A stretch of DNA of 64,000 nucleotides from contig NZ_AQYH01000003.1 of assembly GCF_000380505.1 (NCBI RefSeq), positions 1-64,000 on the forward strand, written 5' to 3'. Each line of letters opens with the position of its first letter. Position 1 is the first letter of the stretch. The stretch is from Kaistia granuli DSM 23481. GTDB lineage: Bacteria; Pseudomonadota; Alphaproteobacteria; Rhizobiales; Kaistiaceae. Positions 7,470 to 8,603 of this stretch are shown in pieces. The notes under the pieces are model-generated. The model had not been told where the DNA came from, did no database searches, and saw only the letters and a program-made list of their open reading frames with translations. Position numbers and translations under genes: made by a program.

Positions 7470-7484
7470 GATGAGAGAGTGACG

Positions 7485-8039
7485 ATGAGCGACAACACCA
7501 CGGTCAACCATTCCGGCCTCGAGACGGATGCCGACAGCAAGCGCATCCCCTATCGGCATCCGCAGCCGAAGGAATCCTTCCCCGAGATCGTCATCCCGAA
7601 CGCCATTCCCACGGATGAGCGGCTCTGGGTACCGCAGCAGGAGAATGTCTGGTTCCGCCCGCTCTGCCTGTCGGCAAGCCGCGGCTACTGGATGAACTTG
7701 CTGCGCGTGCGTAAGTCCGGTGTGCTGTCGCGCCACCGTCATCCGCAGCCGGTGCATGGCTGGGTGCTGAAGGGCAGCTGGCACTATCTCGAGCACGACT
7801 GGACGGCGGAGGAGGGCTCCTATGTCTACGAGGCGCCCGGCGAGACGCATACGCTGGTCGTCGAGCCGCATGTGACCGAGATGATCACGCTGTTCCAGGT
7901 CAATGGCGCGATGATCTATGTCGATCCCGATGGCGCCGTGCAGGGCTATGAGGACGTCTTCACCAAGATCGACCTCTGCCGCAAGCACTATACGGATGTC
8001 GGCCTCGGCGAAGGCTATATCGACCAGCTGATCCGGTGA
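7485..8039 (+). CDS. Cupin protein, 2,4'-dihydroxyacetophenone dioxygenase-like
   Basis: A 184-residue cupin. The metal-site histidines appear in SRHRHPQPVHGWVLKG and the second cupin motif in GETHTLVV, an arrangement also seen in 2,4'-dihydroxyacetophenone dioxygenase and acetylacetone-cleaving enzymes. It may be an iron dioxygenase or a non-catalytic sugar-binding cupin. The ATG at 7485 follows GAGAGAG; a GTG six bases earlier is in frame. It is the last gene of the rightward half of the divergent locus. The name rests on fold and motif resemblance, so the reaction is uncertain. Confidence 0.75.
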   Translation: MSDNTTVNHSGLETDADSKRIPYRHPQPKESFPEIVIPNAIPTDERLWVPQQENVWFRPLCLSASRGYWMNLLRVRKSGVLSRHRHPQPVHGWVLKGSWHYLEHDWTAEEGSYVYEAPGETHTLVVEPHVTEMITLFQVNGAMIYVDPDGAVQGYEDVFTKIDLCRKHYTDVGLGEGYIDQLIR

Positions 8040-8096
8040 GGGGGGGACTGGGTTGGCATTTGTGCATGAAGGCAGATTGCATTTGCCACCCTCCAC

Positions 8097-8135
8097 CAAC
8101 ATCCTGAGGTGCCCGGCGAAGCCGGGCCTCGAAGG
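8097..8135 (+). repeat. Hairpin repeat, left inverted flank of the GIY-YIG gene
   Basis: The unit begins CAACATCCTGAGG and ends CTCGAAG; its core GCCCGGC (8111-8117) and GCCGGGC (8121-8127) form a perfect seven-base stem with a GAA loop, extended by imperfect outer pairing. It belongs to the family of short palindromic intergenic repeats common in Hyphomicrobiales. A related copy in opposite orientation lies at 8445-8480. The hairpin could also end transcription of the cupin gene. Confidence 0.75.
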
Positions 8136-8152
8136 AGGCTCCAGCACGCCCC

Positions 8153-8437
8153 ATGGCCGCCGCCGTCTACATGCTTCGTTGTGCCGACGGCAGCTATTAT
8201 GTCGGCTCAACTTCGGCTGAAGATCGACAGCGGCGGCTGCTGGAGCATCAGTCCGGAGCCTATCGCGGCTATACCCATTCGAGACGCCCCGTCGAACTCG
8301 TCTGGTCCGAAGAGTTTGATCGCCTCACCGACGCCTATGCGGCGGAGCATCAGATCAAGGGCTGGTCGCGCGCCAAGAAGGAAGCCCTGATCCGTGGCGA
8401 TTGGGCGGCGATATGCGAACTTGCCAAGCGAAGGTGA
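8153..8437 (+). CDS. Single-domain GIY-YIG endonuclease family protein
   Basis: A 94-residue protein that is nearly all GIY-YIG domain: VYMLRCADG.YYVGST at residues 5-19 supplies the two tyrosines, arginine 25 and the RLLEH helix follow, and glutamate lies in AAEHQIKGWSRAKKEALI. It resembles stand-alone YhbQ-type proteins. A GGAGG lies 14 bases upstream, partly inside the left flanking repeat; this spacing is long, so the start is not certain. The gene fills the space between two inverted hairpin repeats, which hints at a small mobile unit. Biological role unknown. Confidence 0.85.
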   Translation: MAAAVYMLRCADGSYYVGSTSAEDRQRRLLEHQSGAYRGYTHSRRPVELVWSEEFDRLTDAYAAEHQIKGWSRAKKEALIRGDWAAICELAKRR

Positions 8438-8444
8438 GTGCGTG

Positions 8445-8480
8445 CTTCGAGACGGCCCTGCGGGCCTCCTCAGCATGTTG
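8445..8480 (-). repeat. Hairpin repeat, right inverted flank of the GIY-YIG gene
   Basis: Read on the minus strand this copy begins CAACATGCTGAGG, matching the left copy at 12 of 13 positions, and ends CTCGAAG. Its core GGCCC/GGGCC pairs around a three-base loop. It starts seven bases after the GIY-YIG stop codon. The outer ends of both copies point inwards, like terminal inverted repeats. Confidence 0.72.
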
Positions 8481-8551
8481 GGGGACGGTCCGCACGTCGG
8501 TGGAAGAGACGCTTTCCTGCGGAACGCCCACTATCCCGACGCTACAAATAC

Positions 8552-8583
8552 AAAAAAAGGCCGGCGTCTTGGACACCGGCCTT
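8552..8583 (-). terminator. Rho-independent terminator of the aapJ-like gene
   Basis: AAGGCCGG at 8557-8564 pairs with CCGGCCTT at 8576-8583 around an 11-base loop, and the leftward transcript then reads seven U (8552-8558). It lies 20 bases beyond the stop of the amino-acid-binding protein gene. Confidence 0.9.
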
Positions 8584-8603
8584 ATCTATATCGACGCTCG
8601 CGA

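Follow-up and report, generated by a model that had tools for sequence, protein, structure and literature searches.

A small gene for a single-domain GIY-YIG endonuclease in Kaistia granuli, bounded on both sides by palindromes, is probably the resident "driver" locus of a family of REP/REPIN-like repeats, with the minimal endonuclease as the candidate partner that recognises the palindromes around it. This reading is drawn from sequence comparisons among Kaistia genomes and across Pseudomonadota, in which the pairing of gene and repeat is neither a matter of chance nor confined to one locus. On a wider scale, two clades of minimal GIY-YIG proteins may supply the enzymes so far lacking for the CGTC REPs and for the CCTGAG..TCGAAGG repeats, forming a second and independent REP-spreading system in which tag-specific cutting and host repair, with no transposase, would disperse hairpin pairs in at least 13 sampled Pseudomonadota genera; we give this broader proposal an even chance.

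The GIY-YIG gene and its palindromes in the window

The window, that is, the whole stretch of 64,000 nucleotides that was analysed, holds the gene and its repeats in a gap between two open reading frames whose names, cupin-like and aapJ-like, are taken over from the preliminary description (Table 1). The sequence CAACATCCTGAGG at 8097–8109 has its inverted counterpart, CCTCAGCATGTTG, at 8468–8480 with one mismatch, and the core of the right palindrome begins 7 bases past the GIY-YIG stop codon. All of the coordinates given earlier for these edge repeats, for the CTCGAAG hairpins, for the interior frame of 94 codons, and for the spacing of 7 bases after the stop were confirmed.

Table 1. Features of the palindrome-bounded GIY-YIG locus in the window
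Feature	Position	Strand	Details
Gap holding gene and repeats (564 bp)	8040..8603	.	Between the cupin-like ORF (7479–8039, +) and the aapJ-like ORF (ends 8604, −)
Left palindrome	8097..8144	+	Type-1 core CTGAGG-stem-CTCGAAG at 8104–8134; inner end GGAGGCTCCAG; outer end CAACATC, type-2-like
Single-domain GIY-YIG nuclease gene, 94 aa, clade A	8153..8437	+	PF01541 (E 4.2e-16) and tree
Right palindrome, inverted, type-2 repeat CAACATGCTGAGGAGGCCCGCAGGGCCGTCTCGAAGCACGCAC	8438..8480	−	Core at 8445–8473

The encoded protein covers positions 3–76 of the 78 in the PF01541 profile, a match over the whole length of the domain, and its nearest solved structures are 1ZG2 and 1YWL, both UPF0213/YhbQ-like single-domain GIY-YIG proteins. 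Y16 (the tyrosine of YIG), R28, and E65, which we take to be active-site residues by correspondence to I-TevI, are conserved in 96 to 100% of clades A and B; the tyrosine of GIY, Y6, lies outside the reference row used. Searches of PHROGs and NCBIfam matched no family, and a search of Rfam returned two matches, both under the gathering score.

Folded as single-stranded DNA, the left repeat forms a hairpin of −11.9 kcal/mol (z −2.06) and the right one a hairpin of −9.1 kcal/mol (z −1.32), both z values being modest. In a consensus-free test for inverted repeats between the flanks, the window locus scores 13 against a cut of 14, a borderline value that is explained by the left stem being of type 1 and the right stem of type 2, and 5 of 176 random segments from Kaistia loci reach the same score. 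Given that the local score is only borderline, the case rests on homologous loci. The window's genome (G000) has a second gene–repeat pair, a clade-B small GIY-YIG gene (L019, C10:381403-381621) embedded in CGTC-type B repeats, and both of its loci score 13. The CGTC-type pattern has 74 matches in this genome; the core pattern has 9 in the 4.77 Mb, about seven of which are hairpins by eye, two of these being the ones that flank the GIY-YIG gene.

Anatomy of the dispersed repeats

In several Kaistia genomes, the repeats are dispersed away from the gene. In one with 136 A-type sites (G001), 84 of the 100 sites listed fall in 42 close pairs, with starts 63–138 bp apart. Among these listed sites, 40 pairs are convergent and 2 divergent, so that they represent inverted doublets. 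An alignment of 20 gene-less pairs from this genome yielded two unit types, with 14 and 6 pairs: the type-1 unit consists of CCATCATCCTGAGG-stem-CTCGAAGGAGGGTCCAG, a spacer, and an inverted partner whose stem is mostly different, and the type-2 unit of CAACATGCTGAGG-stem-GTCTCGAAGCACGCAGAG, a spacer, and an inverted partner. By eye, the stems vary in sequence yet are mostly self-complementary, and the ends are constant, with CCTGAG/TCGAAGG in clade A and CGTC/CCA in clade B. The ends of the gene-less copies match the flanks of the gene, and in three Kaistia genomes (G001, G005, and G013), the gene lies between two type-1 ends, at the spacer position of a pair. For type-B repeats, the neighbours in a 1 Mb sample were oriented FR in five cases, RF in one, and FF in one. 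The gene-less copies are inverted pairs, which is the layout of REPINs as given in the available part of PMC3116915.

A further kind of palindrome, CACCTCTCCCTGAGGGAGAGGT, is present in Kaistia intergenic regions, upstream of locus L027 and at a site in G013.

Each gene subfamily has its own palindrome in Kaistia

The 14 Kaistia genomes carry from 0 to 4 small GIY-YIG genes each, UvrC aside. The genes are of three kinds and are accompanied by three palindromes: CTGAGG..CTCGAAG for A, GTCATCCC..GGGATCCA for B, and GTCATGGC..GCCATCCAC for C. In all 37 flanks of A, B, or C genes that have a palindrome (A 13, B 18, C 6), the nearest one is of the gene's own type, and one more A flank has none; the patterns were derived from the same 22 loci as this count, and its informative part is that no nearest neighbour is of another type. 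This matching holds even though several of the genomes are rich in A and B repeats alike. In the consensus-free test, 14 of 23 Kaistia loci reach an inverted score of at least 14, compared with 1 of 176 random segments. The 23 scored loci come from 25 non-UvrC matches, after leaving out L060 (the mirror of L051) and a 248-aa frame in G010 (L133); the flank-type count also left out L132.

The number of repeats follows the presence of the gene, with p-values that are optimistic here and in the phylum-wide comparisons below because the compared genomes share kinship. Type A repeats number 8, 70, 136, 138, 187, and 230 in Kaistia genomes with the gene and 1–13 in those without it (p 0.0018); type C repeats number 12, 12, and 18 against 0–8 (p 0.0029). 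For type B, the range is 51–286 with the gene, counting as a carrier G008, whose sole B gene is broken, and 0–42 without it (p 0.0010), with the B-less genomes G004 and G003 having 42 and 30 repeats, respectively.

In a Kaistia side group, B2, B repeats accompany 3 of the 6 flanks. Its loci L058, L066, and L067, from three genomes, follow one and the same upstream sequence; B repeats were found downstream only, and L066 contains an internal stop. Elsewhere, on contig C20 of G012, two copies of a C-type gene (L051 and L060) are inverted with mirrored flanks, which reflects either a large inverted repeat or an assembly artefact.

Distribution across Pseudomonadota

We found 17 named homologues in genome contigs; at this gene, the closest named relatives are from Kaistia. 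Of the 17, 16 have an inverted repeat scoring at least 14 between their flanks, compared with 0 of 136 random segments drawn from these loci. The only one below 14 (L026) is a disrupted copy of the locus in the window, and the 17 include three Kaistia loci that, by sequence, also belong to the genome set (L025 and L026 in G004, L027 in G001). The palindrome varies by lineage, being CTGAGG..CTCGAAG in Kaistia, CCTGAGCTTGTCGAAGG in sphingomonads, and GGTGAGC..GTCGAACC in Vineibacter. In 15 of these loci (L026 and L030 were left out), 37 copies of the flank core lie no farther than 400 bp from the gene and 4 copies lie in the rest of the loci, as counted with patterns written from the loci's own flanks.

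A broader survey covered 80 Pseudomonadota genomes and 77 small GIY-YIG loci among the matches listed, excluding the two loci of the window's genome, three matches with frames of 357–497 aa, and UvrC-size frames other than 12 controls. A tree of the 77 loci gave 7 in clade A (support 0.57), 29 in clade B (support 0.98), and 41 others; the low support for clade A makes its boundary soft. The others include L210, a fragment outside the tree, and L205, a UvrC-like frame of 216 aa, and YhbQ-like proteins are among them. Clade assignment by motif was dropped in favour of the tree, as it misfiled L170, L175, and L206.

A repeat common to both flanks, in either orientation, was found in 26 of the 36 clade A/B loci and in none of the 41 other GIY-YIG loci (Fisher 1.1e-12); it was also found in 3 of 616 random segments, but as these are unmatched to gene ends, the 41 loci serve better as a control. 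The 36 loci come from 19 genomes and 17 genera and the 26 positives from 15 genomes and 13 genera; the remaining 10 genes of these clades have no shared flank repeat. With the inverted score alone, the figures are 23 of 36, 0 of 41, and 1 of 616. All 12 UvrC controls fall under the cut of 14, seven other UvrC loci with a score of zero having been excluded because they end inside the gene. The possibility raised at the outset, that such repeats are just as frequent beside random sites, is contradicted both by these counts and by those from Kaistia. The flanks were measured from the domain and not from the ORF, since ORF-based flanks missed sphingomonad-type cases in which the frame reads through the 3′ palindrome.

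Contrary to expectation, the repeats shared by two flanks are not invariably inverted, as the inverted orientation scores better in 15 of the 26 positives and the direct one in 11; pairs on both sides of a gene can yield direct-better scores. In the sphingomonad-type loci L031–L039 and L041, running through the 3′ palindrome gives the GIY-YIG frame C-terminal tails such as GPSTSSG.

Repeat abundance also follows the clades in this survey. The six clade-A genomes have 5, 23, 37, 41, 60, and 159 A repeats, against a median of 1 in the 74 without a clade-A gene (p 6e-5), and B repeats follow clade B in the same manner (17 vs 63 genomes, p 2e-5). There is no association of A repeats with clade B genes only (n = 14, p 0.41), of B repeats with clade A genes only (p 0.12, in three genomes, too few to tell), or of A or B repeats with GIY-YIG genes outside both clades in genomes that have no others (n = 28; p 0.67 and 1.0, respectively). 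Several genomes are rich in repeats with no gene of the matching clade among the matches listed: G032 and G048, with 45 and 62 A repeats, and G050 and G066, with 175 and 63 B repeats, for which gene loss, a missed gene, or another mover may account. Conversely, the gene is present with few matching repeats in G000 for A and in G033 (4), G072 (4), and G084 (8) for B, the palindrome of the last being a variant that the B pattern misses. Among plasmid proteins, 14 records were found, and three of the four inspected share a flank repeat (scores 27, 16, and 40, with no random control alongside); the S. paeninsulae plasmid locus has no shared flank repeat (score 8).

Mobility of the gene and of the repeats

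The preliminary description saw in the locus a possible minimal mobile unit and proposed looking for an empty site between the cupin and aapJ genes of relatives. This gap is comparable in 6 of the 14 Kaistia genomes; in the rest, contig ends or other genes adjoin aapJ. It contains the gene and both repeats in G000 (564 bp) and G010 (705 bp), the latter with an additional B pair, and a GIY-YIG copy broken by a stop codon in G004 (507 bp). In G001, the gap of 70 bp has neither gene nor repeat and is a candidate empty site, which gain or loss of the gene would explain equally well; the gaps of G005 (339 bp) and G013 (323 bp) are not empty and hold gene-less palindrome pairs, which are divergent, unlike the usual convergent pairs.

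A genes occur at just two conserved Kaistia loci, the window locus (G000, G010, and G004) and another one (G004, G005, G013, and G001). Given these two conserved locations and the decay in place in G004, the A-type gene appears to be kept at low copy number in Kaistia and passed on mostly by vertical descent, and it is the gene-less repeat pair that disperses, with repeats that come and go. The notion of a minimal mobile unit is therefore the weaker part of the preliminary description. RAYT genes, too, are said to be low-copy and mostly vertical.

We also searched for another enzyme that could move the repeats. A Y1/RAYT transposase (PF01797, E 0.001) was found in 0 of 14 Kaistia genomes, with a control search positive in 5 of 14 known genomes, and the 179 ORFs neighbouring 24 clade A/B loci include no further gene family shared by more than two genomes. 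With no Y1/RAYT, no recurrent neighbour, and a conserved active site, the simplest account would make the GIY-YIG protein itself the partner enzyme. The suggestion that a GIY-YIG nuclease is paired with dispersed hairpins much as RAYTs are with REPs has gained from the flank enrichment over controls, the subfamily specificity, the tracking of the gene by repeat abundance, and the missing Y1/RAYT.

A possible mechanism and its alternatives

If the GIY-YIG nuclease is indeed the partner, its binding sites would be the tags conserved at the hairpin base, CCTGAG..TCGAAGG for clade A and CGTC..CCA for clade B, and binding would take place when the hairpin is extruded as a cruciform or present in single-stranded DNA. 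The bound hairpin might then be nicked or cut by the protein, and host break repair or replication could copy or relocate the palindrome pair. No GIY-YIG enzyme is known to join strands, and the route would therefore be one of cutting and repair and not that of a transposase. As a result, non-autonomous pairs would spread and the gene itself would remain at low copy number, which would make the unit a functional analogue of RAYT/REP built around an unrelated nuclease.

The gene could also be a homing parasite that inserts into palindrome pairs moved by another agent, in which case it would depend on the repeats. Its position in the spacer of pairs and the genomes rich in repeats with no gene of the clade are what one would expect from such a parasite, but no alternative mover is apparent, given the lack of Y1/RAYT in the 14 Kaistia genomes and of any widely recurrent neighbour; furthermore, repeat numbers follow the gene at the level of both clade and subfamily, and the A genes of Kaistia are fixed at two loci with no sign of hopping among many pairs, so we regard this explanation as unlikely. 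We are also rather sceptical of a host-side role, in which the nuclease would trim or resolve hairpins, the flanking repeats would regulate its own expression, and replication slippage or recombination would spread the repeats. Structure-selective nucleases are known among the GIY-YIG enzymes, and hairpins 5′ of the start and 3′ of the stop could well regulate the gene; nevertheless, such a manager of palindromes leaves it unexplained that each subfamily has palindrome sequences of its own, and the gene goes with more repeats, not fewer.

Mobilisation by an IS or RAYT element, with the palindrome-bounded segment as its cargo, appears very improbable. RAYT genes are likewise flanked by REPs according to the available text of PMC3733652, but PF01797 was found in none of the 14 Kaistia genomes by a search whose control was positive in 5 of 14 known genomes. 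Finally, we find it barely credible that the repeats are ordinary intergenic REPs or terminators whose nearness to a small gene is accidental. The right repeat does follow directly after the stop codon, and REPs are mostly located downstream of coding regions, as the available part of the same source states (PMC3733652); against this stand the shared flank repeats in 26 of 36 clade A/B loci versus 0 of 41 other GIY-YIG loci and 3 of 616 random segments, together with the subfamily specificity in 37 of 37 flanks.

Relation to known systems and implications

Our preferred reading, a GIY-YIG enzyme as partner of the repeats, has a close parallel in REP/REPIN elements with RAYT (the GTAG REPs), which share the short palindromes, the dispersal as inverted pairs, the low-copy partner gene bounded by copies, and the correspondence of one enzyme subfamily to each repeat type. 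The differences are that the partner here is a GIY-YIG nuclease and not an HUH Y1 transposase, that the GTAG tag is missing, and that Y1/RAYT was found in 0 of 14 Kaistia genomes. By this comparison, membership in the RAYT/REP family fails on enzyme and tag, and the likeness stands as a working analogy.

GIY-YIG homing endonucleases, which comprise the I-TevI type and the phage Seg proteins, resemble the window protein in the catalytic domain, the active-site residues, and the logic of cutting and repair proposed for it. The window protein differs in being single-domain, with no intron and no DNA-binding tail, and in having a gene flanked by dispersed palindromes to which it corresponds, where a homing enzyme has a single homing site. 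In size and fold, it is similar to the UPF0213/YhbQ-like proteins (1ZG2 and 1YWL), but the 41 other genes in the survey, YhbQ-like ones among them, differ from clades A and B in that they share no repeats between their flanks.

The palindromes of clade B bring a known class of repeats into the picture. As described in the available part of Di Nocera et al. (2013; PMC3733652), the CGTC REPs, which include the neisserial dRS3 and the rickettsial RPE-4 and RPE-6, have a CGTC tag, an AT at the base of the stem, and a CCA tail, occur mostly as head-to-head dimers, predominate in Alphaproteobacteria, and apparently have no dedicated transposase. Compared with that description, the clade-B palindromes CGTCATCCC..GGGATCCA match in tag, stem-base AT, CCA tail, dimers, and alphaproteobacterial bias, and they differ in having clade-B GIY-YIG genes as partners. 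The clade-A palindromes of the window, unlike CGTC REPs, have no CGTC tag. Judging by titles and the beginnings of abstracts, we recognised no description of a GIY-YIG/REP pairing among the papers listed from the open-access full-text literature, a body that leaves bioRxiv and most subscription journals outside, and the term GIY is absent from the main text of PMC3733652 and from the later citing papers PMC12306157 and PMC6006769, as far as their available text extends.

A GIY-YIG partner matched to each repeat subfamily means that the question of the CGTC REP transposase can be addressed with one small protein and one synthetic hairpin. If the pairing is as we propose, the REP lifestyle, in which a low-copy enzyme is accompanied by many non-autonomous hairpin pairs, would have arisen with two unrelated nuclease folds.
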